This document shows positions 4,355-8,946 of a stretch of DNA of 40,338 nt, in pieces (the first letter of the stretch is position 1; each line of letters begins with the position of its first letter). This DNA is from an uncultured bacterium. Lineage in GTDB: Bacteria; Bacillota; Clostridia; Lachnospirales; Lachnospiraceae. Under the pieces are notes generated by a model. That model ran no database searches. It saw only the letters and a list, made by a program, of their open reading frames with translations, and was not told the origin of the DNA. The translations under genes and the position numbers were made by a program. The stretch spans positions 1-40,338 of the forward strand of contig CAMWUN010000031.1 of assembly GCA_947177425.1 (NCBI GenBank), read 5' to 3'.

Positions 4355-5155
4355 TTAAATGCAGGACAGCGATTGAAGTGCCGTATTTTTGATGATTGGT
4401 TCAAAGTGTTCTTCCAGATAAGCTTCTGAGGCCGGCACTGATTTGACACTGGCGCCGTATTCTGAAAGGATATTGCATATCTTGTTGAATTCAACAGGTG
4501 TATGACTGCTCTTGGAAAGAACCAGCAGGAAGGAACCGTCTTTCTGCTTATACAAGGAATTTGTACCGGAGTAAAAGCCGGACAGGATGTGCGCCGATCC
4601 GGTCACTTCCCGAAGGCTGTTAAAGGAATAAAGCCTGGTAAGTTCCATGGAAGCTGCGGTGTCGGCAAGCTTTTTCTGCAGGGCGTTTTTGAAAGAGCGC
4701 TTGGCTTCTTCGATGTCGGTATTGCTGCCCCCGTTCTGGGAATGATCTTCCGGGGAGGCGTTTCCGGCTTTGCTGCCCTGGAGTTTCTTGAAAAGATCAA
4801 GGACATCGTCCGCCCCTTCTGCAATGGTGTCCAGCACATCGTCTAAAGTACTGTCGTCCTCGTGGACAGATGGCGCAAACTTTGAAAAACGGGTGTCAAG
4901 TTCGTCAGGGTCTTCAACTTTAGTAATAATCAGAACGATGCACTCTGAATTTAAGGGAATTGCTTCTATCATTAATGGAATATCTTCCGCTTCAAATCCA
5001 AATTCAAAGGATGCCTGCTGCATCATGTCACGAAATAAATCTTTGGCTTTTTCGGTACCATAAGCAAGTTCACTGAGCTTTAATTCTCTGTCGGCCAGAT
5101 CCTCTCTGGTCAGAGTACAGCGAATCTGATGATCATTCACTTTTTCTATTTTCAT
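4355..5155 (-). CDS. mecA: Adaptor protein MecA
   Basis: MecA-type adaptor that delivers substrates to the ClpC/ClpP protease and promotes ClpC assembly in the cytoplasm; in Bacillus it controls competence and stress regulators. The 266-residue protein begins MKIEKVNDHQIRCTLTREDL, the characteristic N-terminal substrate-binding domain (about residues 1-80). A long acidic, low-complexity linker follows (about 85-150). The C-terminal ClpC-binding domain (about 155-260) contains LYSFNSLREV and a conserved pattern ending SEAYLEEHFEPII. It is longer than the Bacillus protein (about 218 residues) because of the linker. The start at 5155 has a GAGGATGTG site. It has its own promoter and terminator, so it is probably monocistronic. 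The family assignment is firm; target proteins in this organism are unknown. Confidence 0.9.
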   Translation of the reverse strand: MKIEKVNDHQIRCTLTREDLADRELKLSELAYGTEKAKDLFRDMMQQASFEFGFEAEDIPLMIEAIPLNSECIVLIITKVEDPDELDTRFSKFAPSVHEDDSTLDDVLDTIAEGADDVLDLFKKLQGSKAGNASPEDHSQNGGSNTDIEEAKRSFKNALQKKLADTAASMELTRLYSFNSLREVTGSAHILSGFYSGTNSLYKQKDGSFLLVLSKSSHTPVEFNKICNILSEYGASVKSVPASEAYLEEHFEPIIKNTALQSLSCI

Positions 5156-5229
5156 AATATTATCACATCCTCACTATTAAGATACTGTTATCCTGCCATT
5201 TGGTGACACATACAATCACTTAAAAATAT

Positions 5230-5256
5230 ATTATACTTTGAGCGAATTTAAGTCAA
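5230..5256 (-). promoter_or_regulatory. Candidate promoter of mecA
   Basis: On the minus strand TTGACT (5251-5256) is followed after 15 bp by TATAAT (5230-5235), or after 17 bp by TAATAT. The short spacer lowers confidence. The surrounding 5156-5350 is very AT-rich and sits between divergent transcripts. Confidence 0.5.
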
Positions 5257-5355
5257 TAGGACAAAAAAACAGTTTAAAAAAATTTAATAAAATGACCATA
5301 TTCTAGGAAATTATACATTATTTGTTAAAAATATATAAAAAATTCAAAATGCTAC

Positions 5356-5384
5356 TTGCAAAATTTGGCAATAACCACTATAAT
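5356..5384 (+). promoter_or_regulatory. Promoter of the structured RNA
   Basis: TTGCAA (5356-5361) and TATAAT (5379-5384) are separated by 17 bp, preceded by A/T tracts that could act as an UP element. The predicted start at about 5391 coincides with the first base of a long closing helix, which supports both calls. Confidence 0.8.
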
Positions 5385-5390
5385 TATTCC

Positions 5391-5707
5391 CGTGAGATGC
5401 TTCCGGATAAATCATGTATCGGCAAGGAGGCATAACTTAAGAATTTTTTTCACGAATCTAAGCAAATTGAATCACTGGAAGCTTGGTTTTTAAGCTTCAT
5501 CTTTTCCCTTCGGGTCTTCGGGCTCTGCTGATTTATTCTATGATTTATTCCAGTATATTATTTTTTATGAATGAAGGGACGTCTTACAGGCTTTGTGCTT
5601 GTCGCGAATATTCTACAGATTTTCACTGTTATAATTCAAACCATCGGAAGTTCGCAGCGGTAGTTTTTTAGTTAGTTAGATACGTATCCGGCATCTTACC
5701 TGTTTTT
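5391..5707 (+). ncRNA. Structured non-coding RNA, about 315 nt, family not recognised
   Basis: No convincing protein is encoded here. The two ends pair over a long distance: GTGAGATG (5392-5399) with CATCTTAC (5692-5699), then CCGGATA (5403-5409) with TATCCGG (5685-5691), giving a 15-bp closing helix with a 3-nt bulge. A T-rich tract (CTGTTTTTATT) follows at once, and a sigma-A promoter places the start exactly at the 5' edge. Inside are clear hairpins: GAAGCTT/AAGCTTC (5478-5498, 7-nt loop), CCCTTCGGG (5506-5514), ACAGGC/GCTTGT around 5586-5602, and ACAG/CTGT around 5615-5629. The ends are not tRNA-like (against tmRNA), RNase P core motifs are absent, and it is longer than 6S RNA. It may be a stand-alone RNA or the leader of the small gene at 5831. 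A raiA-like or other large clostridial RNA class is possible but I cannot confirm it by eye. Confidence 0.75.
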
Positions 5708-5830
5708 ATTATCGTCATTAATAAGAAAACTATAATCAGTTCCAGGATTAATTTATCTCTTTGACATGACATATCACGGAATCCTTTTGGAAATTGTCAA
5801 TGAATAAATCCGGGACAGATGGGAGATTGT

Positions 5831-6049
5831 ATGGCTTCTAATAACAAAACAAATTTCAGCCTGCTGAAGTCACAGTTGGAAAAACTGGAAAAAAACGGCA
5901 TAAAGCTGTACTTAAATGGCCTTCCGTCCACTACGGAATATATTGTGAGAAAGTGTGTAAATGAAGATACGGTATATATGCCTGATTATGTGACGGACGA
6001 GGATGGAAAGGTAAAGGAAATCCGGTATGACAGGATATCCTTCCATTAA
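5831..6049 (+). CDS. Small unknown protein, 72 residues
   Basis: I do not recognise this protein. It begins MASNNKTNFSLLKSQLEK; the start at 5831 is preferred over the in-frame ATG at 5819 because GGGAG then sits seven bases upstream. The N-terminal half is lysine/leucine-rich and probably helical (LLKSQLEKLEKNGIKLYLNG). The C-terminal half is mixed and acidic with several Tyr and Val, ending RYDRISFH. It has no signal peptide, membrane segment or cysteine motif beyond a single Cys, so it is probably cytosolic. It lies 124 bp after the structured RNA and just before two inverted-repeat elements. No good promoter is visible directly upstream: a TTGACA at 5761 has no matching -10, but forms an inverted repeat with TGTCAA at 5795. 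Its normal codon structure and ribosome site suggest it is real. Confidence 0.65.
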   Translation: MASNNKTNFSLLKSQLEKLEKNGIKLYLNGLPSTTEYIVRKCVNEDTVYMPDYVTDEDGKVKEIRYDRISFH

Positions 6050-6211: not shown

Positions 6212-6360
6212 AACTGCTGGTTACTGTTCACTCCGTGACCAGTAACATGCAGAAATCCATCGAAAATTGCCTTCGGCAATGGGATTTTTGCACTCTCGAA
6301 TCACTTTCTTACGACCAGCGCAGTAAATGCGCAGGTCTGTGTGAACAGTAACAACTGCTG
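6212..6360. mobile_element. MITE-like element with 12-bp terminal inverted repeats and 8-bp target duplication
   Basis: GTTACTGTTCAC (6220-6231) and GTGAACAGTAAC (6341-6352) are perfect terminal inverted repeats bounding a 133-bp core. Directly outside both ends is the same octamer AACTGCTG (6212-6219 and 6353-6360), the footprint of insertion with target-site duplication. The core is itself palindromic: AAATCC..GGATTT around ATTGCCTTCGGCAAT (about 6251-6296), and an imperfect GACC..GCGCA/TGCGC..GGTC hairpin near 6313-6338. It has no coding capacity, so movement would need a transposase in trans. The 8-bp duplication is compatible with several IS families; I cannot name one. With the compound repeat it fills the 394-bp gap before the GH18 gene. 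Confidence 0.8.
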
Positions 6361-6443: not shown

Positions 6444-8141
6444 ATGAAGAAAAAAATACTACCTGTTTTAATAGCAGTCGTCCTTATTATAGTAATCGGG
6501 GGCGTGAGCATTGGAACAATGATTCTGGAGAAGTATTCGTATACGAAAGAACGTGCGGATCTTTCGGCATATTTTAATATGCAGGGGGAAGCGGATGTGG
6601 CAATTATGCTGCAGGATGAACTGATTGAAGAGAGGGCAAAACTTTTTGACGGGGTATATTATTTGGATATTAACACGGTTCACAAATACTTTAACGACCG
6701 TTTTTATGAAGATAAAGGTGAAGGGCTTTTACTCTATACACTTCCTGACGATATTGTGAGGAATGTCATTGGAAGCAGCGAGGTAAGCGGCAAAGACGGC
6801 ACGGCGACATTTTCCTGCGTGCCTGCCAGATATGAAGGGGAAACTTTATACATTGCACTGGATTATGTAAAGCAGTATGCTAATTTTTCCTATGAAGGGT
6901 TTACAGAGCCTGACCGTCTCCAAATCTATACCCAGTGGGATGAGAGACAGGTGGCCGATATAGCAAAAGACACAGCCGTCAGGGTTTTAGGAGGCGTAAA
7001 GAGCGAGATACTTGAGGATCTTAAGGCAGGAGACAGGGTAATCGTCCTGGAACAGATGGAAAACTGGAGTAAGGTCAAAACCCAGGATGCTGTTGTGGGA
7101 TATGTGGAAAACAAGCGGCTTTCCAATATAAAATCAGAACTGCCTATTCCGGTGGAAGATTATGAGGAGCCAGAGTATACCAGCCAGACCAGGGATTACA
7201 AAATCAACCTTGGATGGCATGTGGTGGCCGGGCCTGCAGGAAACGATACCCTGAATGAAGCTGTTGCAAATACCAAAGGGCTGAATGTCATATCCCCTAC
7301 CTGGTTCAAATTAAGCGACAGCGAAGGAAATTTTACCAGCTTTGCAAGCCAGGGGTATGTGGACAAGGCTCACAGCATGGGACTTGAAGTCTGGGCGCTG
7401 GTGGAAAATATTGAATATAAAGACAGTATTGACATGTTTGCCATTCTTTCTTCTACGGCCACAAGGGCAAAGCTGATTGACGGCCTTGTAAATGAAGTCC
7501 TTGCCTGTGGAATTGACGGAATAAATGTGGATTTTGAGCAGATCAGCATGGACTGCGGCGAGCATTATATAGAGTTTATCAGGGAATTGTCCATTCCCTG
7601 CCGGGCAAACGGCATTGTCCTGTCAGTGGACAACTATGTGCCCACCGGATACACTGACCATTATGACAGGGCGGAGCAGGGGGTGGTGGCCGATTACGTG
7701 ATTATCATGGGCTATGATGAACATTATGCGGGAAGCCCGGAGGCAGGAAGCGTGGCGTCCATTAACTTTGTGGAGGAAGGAATCGAAAAGACGGTAGAGC
7801 AGGTGCCTGCCAATAAAGTAATCAACGCAATTCCTTTTTATACCAGAATCTGGGAAACTTCCAATGGAGAACTTGGCAGCCAGGCGGTGGGTATGGATGC
7901 GGCCCAGCAATGGGTAAATGCCCATAATGTTGCAGTGGAATGGAATGAGGAAACCTGCCAGAATTATGGCGAGTATACAGACGGCGCAAGTCTCTATCAG
8001 GTATGGCTGGAGGATGAAAAATCCATTGAAGTCAAGCTGAATATTATGGAAAAATATGGTATCGGCGGAGTTGCAGGCTGGAGACTTGGATTTGAAAGGC
8101 CGTCAGTGTGGGATGTAATTGAGGTATATCTGAACAGATAG
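6444..8141 (+). CDS. Membrane-anchored GH18 glycosidase with SH3-like domain
   Basis: A 565-residue exported cell-wall protein. A lysine-rich start and one hydrophobic segment (about residues 4-28) form a signal anchor. Residues about 35-160 are an uncharacterised extracytoplasmic region. An SH3-like domain covers about 172-230 (AVRVLGG, GDRVIVLEQMENWSKV, GYVENKRL), followed by a glycoside hydrolase 18 barrel from about 250 to the end. The GH18 active-site block is DGINVDFEQ, with E365 as the expected acid catalyst and D363 as its partner; the Asn at 361 is usual in the YaaH/SleL-like branch. VIIMGYDEHY and the C-terminal GVAGWRLGFE are typical barrel strands. Relatives act on peptidoglycan or chitin-like glycans, including spore-cortex lytic enzymes. 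Substrate is inferred. The ribosome site is GGAGG, and a terminator follows. Confidence 0.88.
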   Translation: MKKKILPVLIAVVLIIVIGGVSIGTMILEKYSYTKERADLSAYFNMQGEADVAIMLQDELIEERAKLFDGVYYLDINTVHKYFNDRFYEDKGEGLLLYTLPDDIVRNVIGSSEVSGKDGTATFSCVPARYEGETLYIALDYVKQYANFSYEGFTEPDRLQIYTQWDERQVADIAKDTAVRVLGGVKSEILEDLKAGDRVIVLEQMENWSKVKTQDAVVGYVENKRLSNIKSELPIPVEDYEEPEYTSQTRDYKINLGWHVVAGPAGNDTLNEAVANTKGLNVISPTWFKLSDSEGNFTSFASQGYVDKAHSMGLEVWALVENIEYKDSIDMFAILSSTATRAKLIDGLVNEVLACGIDGINVDFEQISMDCGEHYIEFIRELSIPCRANGIVLSVDNYVPTGYTDHYDRAEQGVVADYVIIMGYDEHYAGSPEAGSVASINFVEEGIEKTVEQVPANKVINAIPFYTRIWETSNGELGSQAVGMDAAQQWVNAHNVAVEWNEETCQNYGEYTDGASLYQVWLEDEKSIEVKLNIMEKYGIGGVAGWRLGFERPSVWDVIEVYLNR

Positions 8142-8235: not shown

Positions 8236-8946
8236 ATGGGGCAAAGCGTGACAAGTAATCAGAACAGGGTTTTGAAACTGGTAATGGTAGGGATATTGAT
8301 GTTTTCCATGTTTGTGGTGGCGAGAGAAGGAGCTGTTTATGTAAGTTCTGTGCAGGTGAAGGAGAAGGAAAAGATATGTGTGGTGATTGATGCCGGACAT
8401 GGGGGAGCGGATCCTGGCAAAGTGGGCGTCAACAACCAGCTTGAAAAGGATATTAATCTGAAAATAGCCCAGAGCCTTAAGCAGTTTCTGCAGGCGGAGG
8501 GTATCGAGGTGGTGATGACCCGGGAGGGGGATGGCGGCCTGTATGACGAAAATGCTTCCAATAAAAAGGTACAGGATATGAAAAGAAGGCTGGAAATTAT
8601 TGAAAACGCCAATCCGGCTCTTGTGGTAAGCATCCACCAGAACAGTTATCATGAAGAGTACGTCAAAGGGGCGCAGGTTTTTTATTATTCTACCAGCGAG
8701 AAAAGTAAAGAACTGGCGGAAATACTTCAGGAGCAGCTGCGGAAACTGGATTCGGAGAATACACGGCAGGCCAAAGGGAATGACAGCTATTTCCTGCTGA
8801 AAAAGACTTCTAAGCCGATTGCCATAGTAGAATGCGGTTTCCTGTCCAACAGGGAGGAGGCGGAGGAACTGTCCTCACCGCTTTATCAGGAGAAAATGGC
8901 CTGGAACATCCATATGGGAATTATGAAATATATTAGTACATTGTAG
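8236..8946 (+). CDS. cwlD: N-acetylmuramoyl-L-alanine amidase, CwlD-like
   Basis: Zinc-dependent Amidase_3 enzyme that cuts the bond between muramic acid and the stem peptide of peptidoglycan. In spore formers CwlD-type enzymes begin muramic-lactam formation in the cortex. The 236-residue protein has an N-terminal membrane or signal segment (about residues 15-30). The catalytic domain starts at VVIDAGHGGADPG (first zinc His); the Glu in LEKDINL, the His in VSIHQN and the catalytic Glu in IVECGFLSN follow in order. All key residues are present. The start is uncertain: ATG 8236 has a poor ribosome site, while in-frame GTG 8248 is preceded by GGGG. It lies between the GH18 gene and sua5. The specific symbol rests on size and architecture and could be another small amidase. 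Confidence 0.8.
   Translation: MGQSVTSNQNRVLKLVMVGILMFSMFVVAREGAVYVSSVQVKEKEKICVVIDAGHGGADPGKVGVNNQLEKDINLKIAQSLKQFLQAEGIEVVMTREGDGGLYDENASNKKVQDMKRRLEIIENANPALVVSIHQNSYHEEYVKGAQVFYYSTSEKSKELAEILQEQLRKLDSENTRQAKGNDSYFLLKKTSKPIAIVECGFLSNREEAEELSSPLYQEKMAWNIHMGIMKYISTL

Follow-up and report, generated by a model that had tools for sequence, protein, structure and literature searches.

A conserved structured RNA beside mecA, apparently of an undescribed family, in Parablautia and scattered other Lachnospiraceae

Large structured RNAs that show strong covariation and belong to no known class are uncommon, and a ribozyme, riboswitch or ribonucleoprotein component has been recognised in some of them. 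Among the large structured RNAs of Firmicutes and their relatives, raiA, OLE, ROOL and GOLLD are Rfam families. Here we describe a putative RNA of this general kind in contig CAMWUN010000031.1 (assembly GCA_947177425.1) of an uncultured bacterium of the Lachnospiraceae, whose genus is, by inference, Parablautia. The whole stretch analysed (40,338 nt, hereafter the window) carries the candidate between mecA, which is transcribed divergently, and a gene for a small protein that is followed by a glycosyl hydrolase family 18 (GH18) gene (Table 1). Comparison with related genomes shows positions 5391–5699 to belong to what is, as predicted from sequence, a structured RNA family, with a promoter-like site, a stacked base of helices P1, P2 and P3 that joins the two ends, a variable arm, a hairpin (P4) and fixed motifs. 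We regard it as a new and apparently undescribed RNA family of Lachnospiraceae; the novelty claim covers the family and not its mechanism. Transcription of the RNA, the ends of the transcript and its function are inferred from the DNA.

Unlike raiA, OLE, ROOL and GOLLD, the candidate has no Rfam match at gathering score: none of the 4227 families of Rfam 15 reached it in the window or in 18 distant loci (two of them later dropped). A permissive search of the region (E ≤ 10) returned just two chance-level matches, one to a microRNA model (E 5.3) and one to SNORD115 on the opposite strand (E 1.1). In an E-value-mode search of 10 loci of the genus there were likewise two matches, both well short of threshold and off the RNA. 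raiA, which we take to be among the models scanned, had no match, and neither had the models for transfer-messenger RNA (tmRNA), ribonuclease P (RNase P) RNA or signal recognition particle (SRP) RNA, the searches for these classes being confined to this locus. Paired ends, a promoter of its own and poor sequence conservation would be features in common with 6S RNA, but RF00013 does not match at this locus (window and 18 distant loci), a separate 6S match lies elsewhere in 10/10 genomes tested (9 above the cut-off, 8 carrying the present RNA), and the candidate has hairpin P4 and fixed motifs. The original prediction had read the element, from one sequence, as a structured RNA with its own promoter and as a candidate for an undescribed or poorly known class, had set it apart from tmRNA, RNase P, SRP and 6S RNA, and had proposed an Rfam scan as a check. 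The scan gave no known class, and this reading is supported by the Rfam negatives together with the covariation described below. The evidence for the candidate is of the kind behind the candidate motifs of intergenic-region screens (PMC11109978, PMC8632094, PMC8040213), which are covarying intergenic RNAs with no job assigned. Those main texts contain no mecA, Lachno-, Blautia or Roseburia, the supplements lying outside this check. No published description of the RNA was found in a search that left aside supplements, most subscription journals and preprints.

We consider it almost certain that this is a genuine conserved RNA family, and changes at paired positions carry the case. In the core of the genus (210 columns, 26 distinct sequences), RNAalifold gives −65.2, compared with −32.5 ± 4.0 for shuffled columns (0/100 as good). 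Both-sided changes in an alignment covering P1, P2, P3 and P4 (A8) affect 12 of the 24 pairs and 30 cells, against shuffled means of 5.5 and 8.0 (0/500 as high). Paired cells amount to 97.2% in A8 and to 32–39% when the strands are slid by 1 to 3 columns, and compensatory changes are seen in 5/5 modelled pairs of P2. Because A8 was fitted to R1, a covariance model with P1, P2 and P4 and no P3, the alignment leans toward these three helices.

A second line of evidence comes from pairing the strands of each locus with its own or with swapped partners. For P1, 7.15 of 8 positions are paired in the own combination versus 6.01 ± 0.13 in swapped ones (26 loci; 0/20000 permutations), and 11 of the 13 held-out loci give 7.09 versus 5.74 ± 0.24 (0/20000 permutations). 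In the zone of P2 and P3, the longest Watson-Crick run is 4.81 with own versus 4.06 with swapped partners (26 loci, p 0.00015), and 4.82 versus 3.80 in 11 held-out loci (p 0.00075). The P1 test took 26/29 loci, excluding a partial match (L163), L104 and L157. Given that the loci were located by R2, a model of helices P1, P2, P3 and P4 that is based on 11 sequences and rewards pairing, the 13 held-out loci offer no independent evidence for the structure; their gene context does count as independent.

The 15-bp closing helix of the original prediction (5392–5409 with 5685–5699) was correctly placed, and its paired ends are kept in relatives with compensatory changes, both in A8 and in the own-versus-swapped comparison. 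Among the internal hairpins it had seen, P4 (5586–5602) is conserved; some others fall in the highly variable arm. By eye, P3 takes the form GCAC/GUGC in L147, L150 and L156 and GUAA/UUAC in L108 and L155; L154 has GUAC/GUAC. A helix of the genus, AUCUAA/UUAGAU, that was part of R1 competes with P3; P3 is more widely supported, and was hence used in R2. Another alternative, a hairpin AUGCUUCC/GGAGGCAU exclusive with P1, is possible in Parablautia and was rejected because, by eye, it is lost where P1 changes (L098, L106, L113).

The single sequence makes a modest case for an RNA, and comparison is decisive. The closing helix comprises 15 bp (9 bp + 6 bp), with one G-U pair and a 3-nt bulge, TTC, at 5401–5403. 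Its longest end-to-end run, of 10 pairs, was equalled in 122/5000 composition shuffles of both ends, so that one sequence cannot prove the helix. Positions 5385–5712 fold at −77.6 compared with −70.5 ± 4.2 kcal/mol (z −1.7; 5/100 shuffles as good). Similarly, the promoter-like site (−35 TTGCAA at 5356–5361, a 17-nt spacer and −10 TATAAT at 5379–5384; 10/12 consensus matches in the promoter scan) is one of six of equal quality on both strands of 701 bases, where shuffles give 3.5 ± 1.9, and as single-sequence evidence it is therefore weak alone. Across the related loci, the top-scoring site ahead of the RNA begins its −35 with TTG in 29/29, has a 17-nt spacer in 28/29 and ends 4–8 nt short of the RNA match in 28/29. 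The original prediction had given the right coordinates for the promoter-like site of the window (5356–5384). The promoter table consists of 28 loci outside the genus and L173, with the partial match L163 omitted; the script tried spacers of 16–19, admitted only −10 boxes whose second base is A and whose sixth is T, and kept the best site.

Within the genus, a blastn-type search finds the RNA in 34/37 genomes, and model R1 adds one (G004) to give 35/37; the two genomes without it have estimated completeness of 59% and 82%. When the 5′ motif is written as a degenerate pattern, 29 named contigs match it, including those of Parablautia intestinalis D8-82 and P. muri D42-62. The RNA ranges from 224 to 544 nt in length, owing to variable arms between near-invariant blocks. 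In one genome (G027, L027:1226-1472) tandem copies that recur every 52 nt enlarge the variable arm, giving an RNA of 544 nt. The small open reading frame (orf) and GH18 lie downstream in 30/30 of the loci L001–L030 and mecA precedes in 29/30, the exception (L007) being cut by a contig end.

In the family, R1 matches 20/397 sampled genomes at E 0.1 and R2 matches 27/397 (24/334 genera) at E 0.05. At the level of the order, R2 matches 9/246 genomes at E 0.05 (6 inside the family, 3 outside), and at the level of the class 2/341 at E 0.01, both Lachnospiraceae; no match outside Lachnospiraceae in these 246 and 341 genomes retains the gene context. Searches over more than 40 genomes used stricter filters that lose weak matches. 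We retained 29 genomes outside the genus (16 loci, and 13 used in no model), in which GH18 is downstream in 29/29 and mecA divergent in 27/29; L106 lies close to the end of its contig, and of the two genes L113 has just GH18. Matches with neither mecA nor GH18 nearby were dropped (L109 and L112, R1, 27.8 and 23.5 bits; L160, 27.1 bits), as were three from other families that miss the context (L164, L165 and L166, 26.4–29.6 bits), and L110 and L111 (R1 E 0.015 and 0.017) were retained owing to theirs. The 29/29 for GH18 is partly by construction; a context-free cut at E ≤ 0.001 gives the same picture, with a same-strand GH18 gene just downstream of 26/26 R2 matches in the family and 6/6 in the order, including L113, which lacks mecA.

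mecA itself occurs in 59/60 family genomes. R2 detects the RNA at 6 of the 30 mecA loci with the best scores (E ≤ 2.3e-9); one further match, at E 0.81, is left uncounted. What appear to be strongly diverged versions, missed by the covariance model, stand in L122, L124, L126, L127, L129 and L138, with helices, by eye, of GAGAUUUGAGGC/GCCUCAAAUCUC in L122 and CUAAAAGAUAG/CUAUCUUUUAG in L124. An architecture test (−10 box, helix of at least 8 bp right after it, G-rich motif) is passed by 16/30 loci, where six rounds of shuffling gave 6, 1, 2, 1, 4 and 0, and with the downstream motif added by 8/30, where they gave 1, 0, 0, 0, 0 and 0. Loci that have GH18 upstream of mecA (1500-nt flank) pass in 13/16 cases versus 3/14 of the others (Fisher p 0.003). 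The criteria were post hoc, set after the gaps had been read by eye, and at L134 and L142 the test chose a helix other than the by-eye or R2 one.

Table 1. Coordinates in the window of the putative RNA, its parts and the adjoining genes.
Feature	Position	Strand	Remarks
mecA (ClpC adaptor family), divergent neighbour	4355–5155	−	PF05389, 252.6 bits
Promoter-like site TTGCAA-17-TATAAT	5356–5384	+	counterpart with TTG −35 in 29/29 other loci
Structured RNA as proposed, ~317 nt	5391–5707	+	start inferred from −10 box; 3′ end uncertain
P1, 5′ strand GTGAGATGC	5392–5400	+	pairs with GCATCTTAC, 5691–5699
P2, 5′ strand CGGATA	5404–5409	+	pairs with TATCCG, 5685–5690
P3, 5′ strand GUAUC	5416–5420	+	pairs with GAUAC, 5679–5683; missed in the original prediction
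Shine-Dalgarno-like AAGGAGG, no conserved frame after it	5424–5430	+	AGGAGGCAT invariant in 27 aligned genus sequences; close variants elsewhere
Variable arm(s), limits approximate	5456–5579	+	
Conserved GUCUUACA entering hairpin P4	5581–5602	+	P4: 5586–5591 with 5597–5602
Conserved, apparently unpaired UAUAAUUCA	5630–5638	+	
3′ strands of P3 (5679–5683), P2 (5685–5690) and P1 (5691–5699)	5679–5699	+	
T-tract after P1	5703–5707	+	largely kept within genus, inconsistently outside
Downstream motif AUAUCACG-n-CCUUUUGG	5771–5790	+	one exact occurrence in genome
Gene for small protein of 72 aa (76 aa if begun at an upstream start)	5831–6049	+	matched by neither Pfam nor NCBIfam
GH18 gene, product with SH3 domain	6444–8141	+	constant neighbour downstream

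The position of the 3′ end bears on what the RNA may do. The original prediction ended the transcript at a T-tract; TTTTT is indeed found at 5703–5707, and the genus alignment largely keeps a T-rich tract there (TTTTT in many sequences, TTTCT or TTTT in others), but 5707 as the transcript end is doubtful, given that a run of at least five Ts within 30 nt past the match is found outside the genus in just 8/28 loci (9 counting L104, whose run starts inside the match). No intrinsic-terminator-like site ends within 200 nt past P1 in 31 loci, by a scan that is blind to P1 itself as a stem, and in 8/31 loci such a site lies inside the RNA or more than 200 nt beyond P1. The sole terminator-like site listed in 5150–5850, at 5478–5498, falls within the variable arm (1 found, 0.3 ± 0.6 expected); this hairpin carries a T-rich tail. 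Right after the RNA, at ~5709–5736, the genus conserves TATCGTCAT...ACTATAAT, with variants in L105 and L108. This stretch, TATAAT-like by eye and unlisted in the promoter scan, could be a second promoter or part of the RNA. Further downstream, at 32 to 140 nt past the match, TATATCAC is exact in 21/29 loci and differs at a single position in another 6 (manual count); it is missing downstream of P1 in two of the 29 (L096 and L161). Of 10 genomes, 7 match the strict pattern ATATCAC-N(1-7)-CCTTTTGG once and 3 do not match it, with no reversed match in any; in the window it falls at 5771–5790. Given the conserved motif at 5771–5790, and that terminators were not found just past P1, the element may extend toward the next gene.

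We therefore lean, tentatively, toward the RNA being the structured 5′ leader of a longer transcript; the lack of terminators just past P1 and the conserved motif before the gene are the reasons for which it is placed ahead of a free RNA. A conserved fold upstream of one kind of same-strand gene, as expected of a riboswitch or cis-regulatory leader, is found with GH18 at all retained loci. In this scenario, the transcript would continue from the RNA into the small orf, or toward GH18 in genera where the orf was not found, and the folded domain would lock its own 5′ end. AAGGAGG, which in its exact form or as a near variant comes after P3 across the loci of the promoter table and would lie about 33 nt from the transcript start, may bind the 3′ end of the 30S subunit and serve as a translation-independent stabiliser; alternatively, it may bind CCUUUU of the downstream motif. 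Either partner would couple the fold to messenger RNA stability or to access to a downstream ribosome site. A leader peptide after AAGGAGG was rejected, as no frame is conserved (29 genus loci). Pairing of AAGGAGG with CCUUUU is possible, as the two are complementary, but gains no support from covariation: own combinations give −11.6 versus −11.5 ± 0.35 for swapped ones (20 loci, p 0.36). In Bacillus there is a precedent for a Shine-Dalgarno-like stabiliser without a translation start (PMC4113751). The stabilising Shine-Dalgarno sequence (STAB-SD) of Bacillus thuringiensis cry3A, as far as that source was seen, is similar in lying near the 5′ end of the transcript and not starting translation; it differs in that the AAGGAGG described here is within a large conserved fold of many genera, with ribosome binding only proposed.

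Several observations weigh against the leader proposal. The hairpin at 5478–5498 could halt the transcript early, and P1 followed by the T-rich tract in the genus, or by the T6 found after P1 in L100 and L104, could terminate it. The TATAAT-like stretch at ~5709–5736 could drive the small orf independently. The next gene is inconstant, as the small orf is found in 15/29 loci outside the genus, is borderline in 1 and was not found in 13. CCUUUU is missing in several loci, and its pairing with AAGGAGG is without a species-specific signal. Nearly as likely as the leader is a free-standing RNA, trans-acting or part of a ribonucleoprotein, that runs from ~5391 to ~5707, with the downstream motif belonging to the regulation of the next gene. 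The pairing of both ends, as in many stable RNAs, is consistent with this, as are the T-rich tract or T6 past P1, the TATAAT-like stretch beyond it, and the persistence of the RNA where the small orf was not found (13/29) and where mecA is missing (L113). However, the T-tract is inconsistently kept outside the genus, and every R2 match at E ≤ 0.001 adjoins GH18; weaker matches elsewhere were dropped, so that a relocated diverged copy would escape. A bolder version of the leader, which we rate as improbable, is a family-wide switch in which AAGGAGG held by the fold is a ribosome decoy, set against the 16S-tail-like AUAUCACG-n-CCUUUUGG, and the ribosome pool sets expression of the cell-wall (GH18) locus. 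If true, the class would extend well past what the covariance model detects, because further mecA loci appear to carry diverged versions that combine a promoter, a long P1 and a G-rich motif.

Two other explanations concern the nature of the element itself. It is very unlikely that the RNA belongs, in greatly diverged form, to one of the known classes (6S, raiA-type, SRP, RNase P or tmRNA) and was missed by Rfam. The extreme divergence of the family, with R2 reaching 24/334 genera, implies that models can miss members; against this, no match at gathering level was found in the window and the 18 distant loci, the permissive matches are at chance level or off the RNA, and 6S RNA, already unlikely, is at another place in 10/10 genomes. 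Hardest of all to credit is that a short peptide, or DNA with binding sites separating the divergent promoters, is conserved instead of RNA structure. The location between divergent genes and the fixed sequence blocks would fit it, and single species have frames of up to 91 codons. Across the 29 genus loci, however, no reading frame through the RNA is shared, the longest frames differing in place and length, and compensatory changes at many pairs make such a reading very unlikely.

As for the neighbouring genes, a hidden Markov model of the small orf built here found it in 43/72 loci scanned, a count that takes in repeat loci of the same genome. In the gap that separates the small orf from GH18, at ~6220–6353, the window has a ~133-bp element with inverted ends GTTACTGTTCAC...GTGAACAGTAAC. 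With at least 44 matches in the genome (40 of 245 first-look candidates were scored), it is a high-copy repeat resembling a miniature inverted-repeat transposable element. The GH18/SH3 gene adjoins, at 8236–8946, a gene for a CwlD-like spore amidase (TIGR02883, 212.6 bits, cut-off 221.55).

The RNA is present in nearly all sampled genomes of a gut genus, and it recurs in a scatter of genera from a major family of gut bacteria. It is tied to one place, between the gene for a ClpC adaptor and cell-wall genes, and this single fixed genomic place makes its function directly testable.
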